Assembly: GCA_012034765.1 (NCBI GenBank)
Contig: JAAUOU010000010.1
Coordinates: forward strand, 1 to 64,000
DNA from: Pleurocapsaceae cyanobacterium CSU_1_1
GTDB lineage: Bacteria > Cyanobacteriota > Cyanobacteriia > Cyanobacteriales > Xenococcaceae
Length of the DNA stretch: 64,000 nucleotides
Direction of reading: 5' to 3'
The notes beneath the pieces are model-generated. The model saw nothing but the letters and a program-made list of their open reading frames with translations. It made no database searches and was not told where the DNA came from. Of this stretch, positions 870-7,471 are shown in pieces. A program made the position numbers and the translations under genes. Every line of letters starts with the position of its first letter. Within the stretch, counting starts at the first letter, position 1.

Positions 870-2309
870 ATGAATAAACTTAACCTTAAACCTAAAAAAT
901 CCCGCATCTCTCATCTCCAACGCCAGGAATTAGAAATTAATCCCTTGATCATGTTGCTAGCAGCAGCAGTTATTTTTCTGGTTAGTTATTTAATAGTTGG
1001 TCTGATCCCGCCTTTGAGAGCATCCTATATTGGTGTTTTATTATTTGAGAGAGGATTTGTTCAGTACCTTTCGATGGCGTTAGCTGCCATAGTGATTGCT
1101 ACTGCCGTCATGAAATTTGTGCTGTTGAGAAAAGAACATGAAGCCCTAAGAAAAATCTGGATCGCTGATCATATACCTTTAGATCGCCCTGATGCTCACG
1201 AAGTAGAATACTTTCAGGAACGACTGCTTAAAGACGGATGTTTAGTCGCTCTACGCTGTGGAAGAGTGCTTAGGGCTTATATTCAGAGTGGCGATCGCAC
1301 TGCTGCTAGCGAATTCGCTCTAGATGATTCTGCCTTTTATGCTACCAACTCAGAATCTTCCTATTCCTTTCCTCGTATTTTGGTTTGGGCAATTCCTTTA
1401 CTCGGATTTATTGGGACAGTAATTGGTATTAGTGGTGCGGTTAGTGGGTTTTCAGGATTTCTCGAAAATTCAGGAGACATAGAAGTAATCAAAAAAGGTA
1501 TCGGTACAGTTACCAATAGTCTAGGGGTAGCTTTTGACACTACTCTTCTAGCTTTATTTCTCAGTGTTTTAGTGATGATTCCTTTAGTGTTAGTAGAACG
1601 TTATGAGGCTAATCTTCTGTTGGGTATCGATGTCTTTATCAACGATAAATTGCTCCCCAGACTCACCAAGAAAAATGACCAACTAGACTCGATAGGCATC
1701 AATCAAGCAGTAGCAGGAGCAATTAAAGAATATTTTCCCAATCCTGAAGATCTTATCGATCCAGCTCATAGTTATGCTGAAAAAGCTTCAGAAAAGCTGT
1801 CTACAGGGTTTTTGAGTGAAGTTAGCAAAGTATATGGAATTAGTTCTCAGGTAGTTACTCAAATAGGAGATATTACAGAACAGGTAAATCGCGATCGCCA
1901 AGAATTTCTGACTTTCTTTGCTCAACAGCAAAAAACTAATCAACAATTAGTCCAGCAAATCAGATCGATTGCCACAGAAATCCGCAGTAAAAACCTGGCT
2001 GCTGCCGAAGATCTTAATGCTCAAACTCAAAATATTAGCCAACAGCTAGAAAAAGCAGCCCAAATTTTAGAAACGCGGATCGGCTCTTTAGAAGCTACCA
2101 CCCAAAAAATGTTAGATTTTCAAAGTATACAGCAGGGTTTAGAACGGAGTTTTGCTTCTTTGGAAAAAACGGCTCAACTAGAACATGTCTTATCAGGAGT
2201 CAAAGACAACCTTTCCCTAATGCAACCTCTGCTGCAACAGCTAAATAAACCTCGCCGCATCACCCTAGTCGAGCATGACCATGATCACAACTCTAGACGA
2301 CCAGAATAG
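870..2309 (+). CDS. MotA/TolQ/ExbB-like proton channel subunit with long coiled-coil tail
   Basis: The 479-residue membrane protein has four predicted membrane segments (about 25-48, 63-86, 168-192, 215-242). The last two carry the family signatures: 'IPLLGFIGTVIGI' in segment 3 and 'AFDTTLLALFLSVLVMIPL' in segment 4, the helices that line the ion path in ExbB, TolQ and MotA. The C-terminal half (about 290-470) is Gln/Glu/Lys/Ala-rich with heptad-like spacing, so a long cytoplasmic coiled coil is likely, as in the ZorA subunit of Zorya defence systems. Two ExbD-like genes follow at 26 and 45 base spacing, which indicates an operon encoding an inner-membrane proton-driven motor. The cargo or task is unknown. 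No ZorC, ZorD or ZorE, TonB, Pal or flagellar gene lies nearby, so I do not call it Zorya, Tol or Mot. The family is secure, the function is not. Confidence 0.85.
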   Translation: MNKLNLKPKKSRISHLQRQELEINPLIMLLAAAVIFLVSYLIVGLIPPLRASYIGVLLFERGFVQYLSMALAAIVIATAVMKFVLLRKEHEALRKIWIADHIPLDRPDAHEVEYFQERLLKDGCLVALRCGRVLRAYIQSGDRTAASEFALDDSAFYATNSESSYSFPRILVWAIPLLGFIGTVIGISGAVSGFSGFLENSGDIEVIKKGIGTVTNSLGVAFDTTLLALFLSVLVMIPLVLVERYEANLLLGIDVFINDKLLPRLTKKNDQLDSIGINQAVAGAIKEYFPNPEDLIDPAHSYAEKASEKLSTGFLSEVSKVYGISSQVVTQIGDITEQVNRDRQEFLTFFAQQQKTNQQLVQQIRSIATEIRSKNLAAAEDLNAQTQNISQQLEKAAQILETRIGSLEATTQKMLDFQSIQQGLERSFASLEKTAQLEHVLSGVKDNLSLMQPLLQQLNKPRRITLVEHDHDHNSRRPE

Positions 2310-2335
2310 AATTTTTTACCTAGCCTGACTTAACC

Positions 2336-2812
2336 ATGTCCAGACGTTTTATATCTCGCAAACAGAAAACAGAGGTCGAACTGTTTCCTTTTCTTTCTGT
2401 CCTCGCCTGTACTATTGGGACGCTAGTTCTACTGATTGTTGTCTTAACTACCCAAGCTCTCAAACCCCAAGAAGCCGTGGTCGTTGCCAAAACTGAGGCT
2501 AAAACTGATAAAAATAGCAAAGGAGCTAACCAGAATAAAACTCCTGTCTATATCGAGGCTCGTGAAGATGGTTTTATTTTGCACCCTAGTAAAAAGTTTG
2601 CCCCAAGAACAGATTTGTATGATGAAAAATCGGCTTTGAGAAAGACTATTGCTAATCTCAAGACGAATAAAAACCAGCAATATCTAATTTTAATTCTTCG
2701 TCCCGACGGTTTAGAAATGTTTGACAAAGCTCGCCAGTTGGTGCAAGGAGAGGGAATAGATATAGGCTATGAACCTCTAGAGTATGGTTTAGAGCTTAAG
2801 ATTGAAAGTTAA
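2336..2812 (+). CDS. ExbD/TolR-like subunit lacking the membrane Asp
   Basis: The 158-residue protein has a short basic N-terminus, one membrane helix (about 16-40) and a C-terminal domain. The helix begins 'ELFPFLSVLACTIGTLVLL', which matches the ExbD/TolR pattern P-F-I-D-V-L, but the proton-carrying Asp is Ser at residue 21. The C-terminal domain ends with 'LRPDGLEMFDKAR' and 'GIDIGYEPLEYG'. The next gene's product has the same motifs, so the two are paralogues with different roles. It lies 26 bases after the ExbB-like gene and 45 before the second ExbD-like gene. In known ExbD and TolR the Asp is essential for proton use, so I infer this is a structural partner in a heterodimer. Confidence 0.8.
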   Translation: MSRRFISRKQKTEVELFPFLSVLACTIGTLVLLIVVLTTQALKPQEAVVVAKTEAKTDKNSKGANQNKTPVYIEAREDGFILHPSKKFAPRTDLYDEKSALRKTIANLKTNKNQQYLILILRPDGLEMFDKARQLVQGEGIDIGYEPLEYGLELKIES

Positions 2813-2857
2813 ACATAAGCAAATTTTAAAATATATTTAATTAGATATATGTAACTC

Positions 2858-3568
2858 ATGAGAACCAGAACCAGACGCAGAATGCCTCATAATGGTCAAA
2901 ATTTAGACTCTTTTTTAGATGTTTTGACTAACACCGTAGGCGTATTAATATTTGTCAGTATATTTGCTAGTTTAATTGCGACAGGAGGAGGTAGGCCTAA
3001 AAGCCGTGTCACCATTCAAACTCCGCTTTCTTCCCCGACAAACAAAGAAGCATTGTGGTTTGAAATCCGCAATAAGAAAGTAAGTAACCTAGATTTACGT
3101 CAAGTGAGAGCTAAAGAGCTAGATTTATCAGGTAGTTTACCTAACTGTAACAAGCCGACTAGTAGCGACTCTCTTGGTCTGGGCAATTATCAATCTTGCT
3201 TATTGAGTATTCTGGGTCGTCAAAGTAACTTTAGAGTCGATACCGCTAACTATCGAGTAAGAACAGTAGACCAGGGAGTCTCATTACTGTTTGAACCCCT
3301 ATCCGCAAATATTGGCGAGACTACTACTCAATTAGGGGGAGCAAACTCTGCTTATCAGCAGGTCTTATCAAAGTTTAATCCCCAAAAAGACTATTTAGTA
3401 TTTATTGTCAGACCAGATAGTTTTGAGGCGTTTCGTAACGCTAGAAAAAAAGCTTGGGAAGCAGGGTATGAAGTTGGTTGGGAGCCTATTGACCAAGATA
3501 CGCCAATTAAAATCAGGACGATTATTGGTTCAGAGCTTCCAGGCGGGAGGTCAATTGGCGTACAGTAG
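2858..3568 (+). CDS. ExbD/TolR-like subunit with conserved membrane Asp
   Basis: The 236-residue protein has a basic N-terminus (RTRTRRR) and one membrane helix with 'SFLDVLTNTVGVLIFV'. Asp21 sits where ExbD and TolR carry the proton-accepting Asp. It aligns column for column with the preceding protein (F19, L20, D/S21, V22, L23, T26, G28, L30). A longer periplasmic region follows, ending in the shared motif 'VRPDSFEAFRNARKKA' and 'GYEVGWEPID'. It is the third gene of the unit, and I infer it supplies the functional proton site to a 5:2-type motor with a mixed stalk. No peptidoglycan-binding OmpA domain is seen, unlike MotB or ZorB. Confidence 0.82.
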   Translation: MRTRTRRRMPHNGQNLDSFLDVLTNTVGVLIFVSIFASLIATGGGRPKSRVTIQTPLSSPTNKEALWFEIRNKKVSNLDLRQVRAKELDLSGSLPNCNKPTSSDSLGLGNYQSCLLSILGRQSNFRVDTANYRVRTVDQGVSLLFEPLSANIGETTTQLGGANSAYQQVLSKFNPQKDYLVFIVRPDSFEAFRNARKKAWEAGYEVGWEPIDQDTPIKIRTIIGSELPGGRSIGVQ

Positions 3569-3643: not shown

Positions 3644-3871
3644 ATGAAATCTTTTACCAGTTTATTAAGCTCACTAATTCTCGCGATTTTGGTAGTGGCG
3701 ATCGCCATTTTCTCAATCCAAAATATTCAGGATGTGTCCCTTAAGTTTCTTACCTTCGAGTCAATTACTATTCCTGTTGGCGTGTTATTAGCTCTTTGTA
3801 GTGCGATCGGCATTATTTTAGGTGCATTAATCCCGATTCTGTTTTCTCGCCGAAAAACTCGTAGAGGCTAG
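3644..3871 (+). CDS. LapA-domain (DUF1049) small membrane protein
   Basis: The 75-residue protein has two membrane helices (about 7-27 and 42-68) separated by 'NIQDVSLKFLTFESITIPVG', the pattern of the lipopolysaccharide assembly protein A (DUF1049) family. It ends in a basic tail (RRKTRRG). Family members are small inner-membrane proteins. In proteobacteria LapA is linked to LPS assembly, while the cyanobacterial role is not established. The stop codon lies 11 bases from the convergent end of the DinG-like gene. Confidence 0.8.
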   Translation: MKSFTSLLSSLILAILVVAIAIFSIQNIQDVSLKFLTFESITIPVGVLLALCSAIGIILGALIPILFSRRKTRRG

Positions 3872-5549: not shown

Positions 5550-6758
5550 TTACCCATCTTCTTGAGCTTGATCTTGAGGAAAAGCACCAGGCTTCACTTT
5601 AAGAGTCTTAGCTTGACCATTCCTAATAATTTTTACTGGCAATTCTGCTCCAATTTCACTTGCATCCACCTGTTCCTGTACTTGAAGAGAAGTTGTCACG
5701 CCTAGATTGCCGATCTGACTAATGACATCTCCTGGCTGAAAGCCACTCTTAGCAGCAGGAGAACCAGGAATTACTTTAACCACCAAAACTCCCTCTGACT
5801 GAGCAATTTTAAAGTCAAATTCCTGGGTAGAATTAATTTCCGTTTTAGTTTCTTGGTTGAGATTAATCATCTGCACCCCCAAGTAGGGATGGTCTGCCTG
5901 TCCTTTAGTAAATAGCTGATTGGCAATTCTTTGGACTGTTTCAATGGGGATGGCAAAACCTAACCCCTCCGCATCAGCGCGAATCGCTGTGTTGATGCCA
6001 ATGACCTCTCCTTGAGAGTTAAGCAATGGCCCGCCTGAATTACCAGGATTGATCGCTGCATCCGTTTGAATAAATCTTACCCGCTTGTCAGGAACTCCAA
6101 CTTGAGAACTAGAACGATCTAAGGCGCTAATGATACCTACTGTGACGGTATTGTCTAATCCTAAAGGATTACCGATCGCGATCGCCCATTCTCCAGGAGT
6201 CAAATTTTCAGCATTGCCGAAGTTAACAATGGGAAGATCTTTTGCTTCAATTTTAATCACCGCTACATCGGTAAAAGAATCTGTTCCTAAAACTTTGCCT
6301 TGATAGCTAGTACCATCTTTGAGGGTGACCTGAACTTTTTTGGCACCATTGACTACGTGAGCATTAGTAATTAGACGACCATCTGAGGCAATTATAAAGC
6401 CTGAACCCGTTCCCCGTTCAATTCGGTCTGGCTGATTCTGGGAGTTTTGCCTCTCTTGATTGTCGAAAAAACGTCGCCACGGACTGTTTAATTTTCCAGG
6501 TAAAGTGGCAGAAATCTGGCGAGAAGCATCAATTCTCACCACGGCAGGACTCACTTTTTGTACCGCAGTCGCAATAAAATTAACATGGCGATCGCTACTT
6601 GTAAAAGTACTAGGGGGAAGCGGAATTGCTGCGGTCGATACTTTAGCCTGCTGTACTGGTGTTGAGCGTTGGGCATGATAATTTCCCCAAAAACCTAAAC
6701 CAGTGCCAATACCAAATATACCTATATAAATACCTAGCCTGTGAGAAAAGAATTTCAT
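5550..6758 (-). CDS. htrA: HtrA/HhoA-type serine protease
   Basis: The 402-residue protein begins with an uncleaved signal anchor (residues 8-25), then a trypsin-like domain and one C-terminal PDZ domain (about 290-385). The catalytic triad is visible: His134 in 'ITNAHVV', Asp164 in 'FTDVAVI' and Ser241 in 'NPGNSGGP'. One PDZ domain and a membrane anchor are typical of the cyanobacterial HhoA/HhoB/HtrA group, which degrades or refolds damaged envelope and thylakoid-lumen proteins during heat, light and redox stress. Which of the three cyanobacterial paralogues it is cannot be fixed here. It is followed at about 100 bases by the DinG-like gene on the same strand. Confidence 0.93.
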   Translation of the reverse strand: MKFFSHRLGIYIGIFGIGTGLGFWGNYHAQRSTPVQQAKVSTAAIPLPPSTFTSSDRHVNFIATAVQKVSPAVVRIDASRQISATLPGKLNSPWRRFFDNQERQNSQNQPDRIERGTGSGFIIASDGRLITNAHVVNGAKKVQVTLKDGTSYQGKVLGTDSFTDVAVIKIEAKDLPIVNFGNAENLTPGEWAIAIGNPLGLDNTVTVGIISALDRSSSQVGVPDKRVRFIQTDAAINPGNSGGPLLNSQGEVIGINTAIRADAEGLGFAIPIETVQRIANQLFTKGQADHPYLGVQMINLNQETKTEINSTQEFDFKIAQSEGVLVVKVIPGSPAAKSGFQPGDVISQIGNLGVTTSLQVQEQVDASEIGAELPVKIIRNGQAKTLKVKPGAFPQDQAQEDG

Positions 6759-6883
6759 ATTATTTATTGATGCGGGGTTGATTCCCTAATCACAATTATT
6801 ACAGACAAAAATCAATAAAGTTTTCTTAATCTCAAATCAGGCTCAATAACCCGATTTATTTTCCAGGTTAATCTAGAAGTTGA

Positions 6884-7471
6884 CTATTTATCATCAGAAT
6901 TAGCCGAAATTAAAGTTTTGATTGTTTTTACCTGGGTTGTATATCGATCATCACTCATGACAGGATTAAGGAGATCTGTAGAAATAGGCTCAATTAAGTC
7001 AATCCACGATTTGCATCCACTATAGGCATCGTCATAAGGAATACTTGTGGGTGTCGGCAAACGATAGACTTTTAATAACAGCACCAGTAATGGTCTTTGA
7101 GGTTGCCATTTAAGGCGATCGCCAATCATCTGTTCATGCCAAATATGATATGGTTGCAATGCTGTAATCTGCTCTTTATTGGCGATCGGCACAACATCGG
7201 TAATTTCGGCGCAGCTTTGAATGCTCACTGTCTGAGGATGCCACCCAGACTCTACTGAAGTTACTTTAGCAGCATATTCTGATTTAAGTAGATGAGGTTG
7301 TTGGTGTTCATAAGTTGGATAGAGCCAGACAAAAGGTTGCTGAACTTGAAAACCTGCCTCACGAATACCACCTTTGCGCAACAGCACAATTGTCTCTCCC
7401 TTACTCAAAGCCTCAACGGCGATCGCCCATTCTTTTAATGCGTGTTCGAGCTTCTGGCTGACTAATACCAT
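6884..7471 (-). CDS. DUF1802 family protein
   Basis: The 195-residue protein opens with 'ALKEWAIAVEALSKGETIVLLRKGGI' and contains 'FWLYPTYEHQ'-like text (actual 'FVWLYPTYEHQQPHLLK') and 'LLLKVYRLPTPTSIPYDDAYSGCKSW'. These are features of DUF1802, a family common in cyanobacteria with no known biochemical role. No membrane segment or catalytic motif is evident. It starts 47 bases after the CheW gene at the end of the chemosensory operon and could be cotranscribed with it. That link may only be positional. Confidence 0.8.
   Translation of the reverse strand: MVLVSQKLEHALKEWAIAVEALSKGETIVLLRKGGIREAGFQVQQPFVWLYPTYEHQQPHLLKSEYAAKVTSVESGWHPQTVSIQSCAEITDVVPIANKEQITALQPYHIWHEQMIGDRLKWQPQRPLLVLLLKVYRLPTPTSIPYDDAYSGCKSWIDLIEPISTDLLNPVMSDDRYTTQVKTIKTLISANSDDK

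Follow-up and report, generated by a model that had tools for sequence, protein, structure and literature searches.

An ExbB-type channel gene retained with two divergent ExbD-like paralogues in cyanobacteria, one usually carrying Ser in place of the membrane Asp

What kind of motor is encoded by a locus in which one ExbB-type channel gene is followed by two different ExbD-like genes, only one of which keeps the Asp of the membrane helix? Present models of 5:2 motors assume a pair of identical axle Asp residues, which bind and release ions in turn, with 36 degrees of rotation for each ion (PMC9389320; PMC12905483). The window analysed here, a stretch of 64,000 nucleotides from Pleurocapsaceae cyanobacterium CSU_1_1, contains three such open reading frames on the + strand, encoding an ExbB/MotA/TolQ-type channel protein of 479 amino acids with a coiled-coil tail (ExbB, 870–2309), a small ExbD-like subunit of 158 amino acids with Ser at the Asp position (S, 2336–2812) and a large ExbD-like subunit of 236 amino acids in which Asp21 is kept (D, 2858–3568). 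The first-pass annotation had described a channel with a coiled-coil tail and two paralogous ExbD-like proteins, and this account was borne out by the reading frames, by the Pfam MotA_ExbB match and by the profile alignment of S with D. The residue difference was likewise confirmed (codon 21 is TCT in S and GAT in D), as was the shared C-terminal motif (R122-P-D ... G144-Y-E-P in S and R185-P-D ... G207-W-E-P in D). The host genome has three canonical ExbD genes elsewhere, so the trio comes on top of the normal complement. D is followed in the window by a gene for a small LapA-domain membrane protein (3644–3871); LapA-type genes were also seen at L167, L172, L204 and L209, directly after D in L172 (L172:7419–7670).

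The channel protein was examined by profile search, hydropathy and alignment. It scored 25.3 bits against Pfam MotA_ExbB (PF01618), above the cut-off of 22.9, and hydropathy indicated four hydrophobic helices (window centres at residues ~28–50, 71–79, 175–189 and 225–242) followed by the long coiled-coil tail. The channel core (residues 166–245; 1365–1604, + strand) contains PLLGFIGTV and AFDTT, both nearly invariant in alignment A3 and found in 50 and 54 of 55 homologues, respectively. The tail (approximately residues 290–460; 1737–2249, + strand) is presumably cytoplasmic; the best PDB matches to the ExbB profile were coiled coils, and the tail also gave weak matches to that of ZorA. At the C-terminus, the conserved motif NKPRRITLVE (2244–2273, + strand) has an invariant R462 in A3, with P461 and E468 nearly so. 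An ExbB relative from the actinobacterium Nonomuraea (L107:3641–4558; hhalign 98.4%) ends in RPQRYTLVREQ, which resembles the conserved KPRRITLVE end of the cyanobacterial proteins.

In a profile–profile comparison S and D aligned with each other from end to end (hhalign probability 99.2%, E 8e-20), Ser21 of the former facing Asp21 of the latter; as judged from this alignment, they are true paralogues across their whole length. The family assignment made in the first-pass annotation was upheld in part by profile search, in that ExbB passed its Pfam cut-off, but S reached only 15.5 bits against Pfam ExbD (PF02472), below the cut-off of 25.4, and D matched no family in Pfam, NCBIfam or PADLOC. 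Comparison with a canonical ExbD of the same genome was also weak (hhalign 14.6% for S and 0.3% for D); the S helix is nevertheless in register with the helix of the host's canonical ExbD, PFLS standing against PMID. Searches of PDB sequences with the trio proteins and profiles returned coiled-coil and chance matches only.

AlphaFold models of S and D, built from small alignments of limited depth (sequences of the window and related loci only), had mean pLDDT values of 72–73 and displayed one N-terminal helix followed by a periplasmic domain. The membrane helix is placed at residues 17–41 in S (2384–2458, + strand) and at residues 16–41 in D (2903–2980, + strand), the latter from a low-confidence part of the model together with the invariant columns of alignment A1. 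Foldseek gave no match for either model at E ≤ 0.001. Structural re-ranking of about 1,000 candidates for each model, in which Z values of 5–8 are modest and common for the tool, placed TolR 5by4 (Z 7.6) and ExbD 8pek (Z 6.2) and 8p9r (Z 6.1) highest for the periplasmic domain of S (2531–2809, + strand), all of the top four chains (the fourth with Z 5.7) being TolR or ExbD. The top three chains for D were ExbD 8pek (Z 6.0), TolR 5by4 (Z 5.3) and ExbD 8vgd (Z 5.1); its periplasmic domain (3035–3517, + strand) has an inserted stretch (~residues 80–150) that bears a Cys pair, C97 and C114, present in 47 of 54 D homologues. Two separate models thus rank the same ExbD/TolR family highest, and the predicted folds argue strongly, short of proof, that S and D are divergent ExbD/TolR-type proteins.

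The difference at residue 21 extends well beyond the window. Ser was found in 51 of 58 distinct S proteins, the others having Asp (four), Asn (one) or Ala (one) or, in one truncated copy, lacking the position, and Asp was found in 54 of 55 D proteins, with Ala in the remaining one. The Ser21 codons of S comprise all four of the TCN type (TCT 22, TCA 13, TCG 10 and TCC 6), which argues that the residue has been kept by more than chance. Three positions co-vary, giving paired signatures of P18-S21-C25 in S (Ser21 codon at 2396–2398) and S18-D21-N25 in D (Asp21 codon at 2918–2920), and the S helix has no other charged residue. The idea that S is a decaying gene is ruled out by the retained Ser21, P18 and C25. 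The first-pass annotation had raised the conservation of the Asp/Ser split across cyanobacteria; it holds across cyanobacterial orders, but two lineages are Asp/Asp, one is Asn/Asp and one has neither. Homologues with Asp in both subunits, which had been named as evidence against the idea, do exist, in a minority of four genomes (G312, G313, G319 and G322), and these lineages rule out an invariable split. The asymmetry is strong but not absolute.

In the four Asp/Asp genomes the S body carries a D-type helix, including Asp21. The 5′ end of the G322 S gene is 83% and 78% identical in DNA to the D gene of the same genome, and the identity drops to 38% a few codons beyond residue 21, the mark of partial 5′ gene conversion. 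In a tree of S bodies built without the helix, several forks of which are weakly supported, the four Asp21 proteins fall in two separate places within Ser lineages, the G322 protein beside a Ser21 protein of the same genus. Asp in S is therefore a later change that occurred at least twice, and since the S body was kept when its own helix gave way to one of D type, the two helices are interchangeable in place. Because Asp in both chains is tolerated in four genomes, the asymmetry is not strictly required, and the Ala/Ala pair of G080 also stands against an obligate asymmetry. In that genome (L201 and L202) Ala21 is found in both S and D and the D helix is rebuilt; its trio is possibly a non-conducting derivative.

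S and D are strictly retained together. Profile searches of 120 relatives found each of the two in 40, and the two sets of 40 genomes were identical; in an even sample of 386 genomes from the phylum S was present in 22 and D in those 22 plus one more, with strong ExbB matches in the same 22. The lone extra D match (L220, G048) is a 52-residue remnant interrupted by stops, so that, apart from this broken gene, no intact S or D occurs without the other; the single-gene homologues that would have spoken against a pair did not appear. The survey covered one phylum, the cyanobacteria, and a scan of genome contigs likewise gave cyanobacterial matches only. Of 27 genomes sampled from the family to which the window belongs, 26 have the trio. 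The usual gene order is ExbB-S-D, but it is broken in several genomes, in which the three genes are nevertheless co-retained. D lies away from ExbB and S in G109, G119, G145, G187, G080, Waterburya and a Pleurocapsa MAG, and the genes occupy three separate loci in G089, G179, G247 and G280, where all three are kept. The retention of all three genes after break-up of the operon argues for a shared function. The genomes are related, so these counts are not independent events.

Other copies and more distant relatives were also encountered. ExbB is in pieces in L177 (G371) and mostly lost in L192 (G174), both decaying copies. G306, G315 and G317 have a second copy of the trio (L166, L169 and L171), in which ExbB is shorter (~370 amino acids); the S proteins of these copies form their own clade in the S-body tree. 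Neither viral contigs, searched with the D and S profiles, nor phage records, searched with ExbB, contained relatives. On a plasmid of the alphaproteobacterium Sagittula (L108:3491–5469) an ExbB-type gene is followed by two small helix proteins that both have Asp, with Cys and Asn four residues past it as in S and D. Their hhalign E values against S and D, 0.05 and 0.03, are not significant, and the likeness is too weak for the pair to count as relatives.

No conserved neighbour of the trio was seen; the genes around the loci are mostly housekeeping and not common between genera, and no TonB or TolA gene was seen beside it. At four Nostocales loci (L040, L105, L189 and L219) genes for type III-B Cmr6 and/or a CARF-HEPN protein (Csx1/Csm6-like) lie just upstream of ExbB, and at one of these, L105 on plasmid pANACY.03, viperin and nucleoside kinase genes lie downstream of the trio. 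The trio sequences at the four loci are close to each other, so the linkage may represent one event. A Microcystis plasmid has a PLD-SNF2 helicase gene and a DUF559 gene as neighbours of the trio (L106:632–3913 and 6734–7444), and matches to NsnA (L190:9838–10980) and to Orf5/HEC-06 (L191:10105–12156) are defence-type neighbours of other trio copies.

Among the closest characterized systems is AglRQS of Myxococcus, in which one MotA/TolQ/ExbB protein and two ExbD/TolR paralogues are encoded in one operon, all three proteins are required for sporulation and AglQ D28N abolishes proton conductance (PMC3169522, PMC3858216, PMC9120999). An AglQ/AglS heterodimer has been proposed but is unproven (PMC3169522, PMC3858216, PMC9120999, PMC9389320). 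The cyanobacterial trio resembles AglRQS in that one ExbB-type and two ExbD-type genes are kept together, and differs in that AglR, at 245 amino acids, lacks the long coiled-coil tail of the trio ExbB. Asp is present in both AglQ and AglS. Furthermore, AglQ and AglS are clear Pfam ExbD matches (6.7e-18 and 3.1e-15; PMC3169522), whereas S falls below the cut-off and D has no match. The suggestion of a possible new motor type must accordingly be scaled back, as the combination of a single channel protein and two ExbD/TolR paralogues is already known from AglRQS; the cyanobacterial trio is a new variant beside this known two-ExbD motor.

With ExbBD of the Ton system and TolQR the trio has in common the ExbB channel core motifs, the register of the S helix and, in the models, the ExbD/TolR-type periplasmic fold, but the canonical axle is homodimeric, with an Asp on each chain, and that of the trio would comprise two paralogues, one with Ser. 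The MotAB stator shares a four-helix MotA-like topology and an Asp in the axle helix; the periplasmic domain of the trio is ExbD-type rather than OmpA-like, and a flagellum context is absent. In ZorAB, where the ZorB homodimer has a peptidoglycan-binding domain and defence depends on its critical Asp, the ExbB-type pentamer subunit also bears a long C-terminal coiled-coil tail and the logic is again that of a 5:2 motor (PMC11890865). In contrast to the ZorB homodimer, the trio has ExbD-type domains on two paralogues. ZorA profiles matched the trio ExbB weakly and partially, the best match (18.0 bits, E 2e-4) falling in the coiled coil and NCBIfam ZorA reaching 14.1 of 100 bits, and the ZorB profile gave 15.8 bits with S and nothing with D. 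No ZorC, ZorD or ZorE effector was recognised beside the trio in the window or at the other loci looked at; the ZorD profile matches a helicase-like protein on another contig of the host, but also gives matches in 11 control genomes, S. elongatus among them. Zorya was rejected because the profile matches are weak and partial and no effectors were recognised next to the trio, in agreement with the first-pass remark that the tail recalls ZorA but Zorya effectors are missing. Our searches of the open-access literature turned up no paper that deals with the cyanobacterial trio.

Taken together, the trio most likely encodes an ion-driven motor of the ExbB/ExbD family whose axle is an obligate heterodimer, ExbB5-S1-D1, with one proton-carrying chain (probability of roughly 0.55). 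In such a 5:1:1 assembly ions, presumably protons, would bind to Asp21 of D on their way through the ExbB pentamer; Ser21 of S cannot carry a proton, so that one chain alone, D, would cycle. According to the turnstile model, a 5:2 motor advances by 36 degrees for every proton that binds, its two Asp residues alternating (PMC9389320). A single Asp per axle would, given the proposed 5:1:1 assembly, be expected to halve the number of ions per turn of the rotating axle or to enlarge the step per ion. With unlike ExbD-type domains on S and D, that of D having its insertion, the periplasmic end of the axle would present two different faces, and the coiled-coil tail of ExbB would transmit the movement or a signal to the cytoplasm. 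The fuller picture of a naturally occurring 5:1:1 motor, conserved over a long time, that has a heterodimeric axle, one ion-carrying chain, half the usual ions per turn and a two-faced periplasmic end is more tentative, at slightly below even odds in our estimate.

Other readings place S outside the working axle or make its residue 21 of no consequence. In the main alternative the motor would be an ordinary ExbB5-D2 complex, with S acting as a separate regulator that yields a braked or non-conducting complex, or as a periplasmic partner. An ordinary homodimer could form from D by itself. Asp is present in 54 of 55 D proteins and absent from most S proteins; an acid-less paralogue has the expected look of a dominant-negative brake, and the unlinking of D from ExbB and S in several genomes means that expression could differ. 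However, where the operon is split two ways it is S, and never D, that remains beside ExbB, S and D always co-occur except for the one broken D remnant, and the regaining of Asp by S in four genomes is unexpected for a brake. We regard this account as unlikely, though worth keeping in view. The existence of Asp/Asp, Asn/Asp and Ala/Ala variants, with both Asp lineages nested within Ser lineages, could instead mean that residue 21 of S has simply drifted, one Asp being enough and Ser, Asn, Ala and Asp all acceptable, so that no asymmetry is needed. Neutral change would, however, give a spread of residues, whereas Ser21 is found in 51 of 58 S proteins through all TCN codons, together with P18 and C25, in several orders and at linked and unlinked loci alike, and the Asp cases are whole-helix exchanges rather than point changes. 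Drift thus appears quite improbable.

A further proposal concerns the role of the trio and is compatible with a heterodimer, namely that it is an anti-phage or CRISPR-linked signalling motor acting through its cytoplasmic tail in the manner of ZorAB. The four Nostocales loci with the trio directly downstream of Cmr6 and CARF-HEPN genes, the position of the Microcystis trio between the helicase and DUF559 genes, viperin on pANACY.03, the patchy distribution in the phylum and the likeness of the tail to that of ZorA are all consistent with such a role. Against it, most loci have housekeeping neighbours with no common partner, presence in 26 of the 27 family members sampled is not what a defence island would show, and there is neither a ZorB-type profile match of note nor any effector adjoining the trio. 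We give a defence role a low probability.

With the heterodimeric ExbB5-S1-D1 axle as the preferred reading, a conserved motor in which Asp on one chain is matched by Ser on the other, accompanied by natural relatives that have reverted to two Asp residues, provides a ready-made test of the assumption that two identical Asp residues are used. Such a test bears on the need for both sites, on the number of ions per step and on why the axle is a dimer. The Asp/Ser trio would be informative, too, about the proposed pairing of AglQ with AglS.
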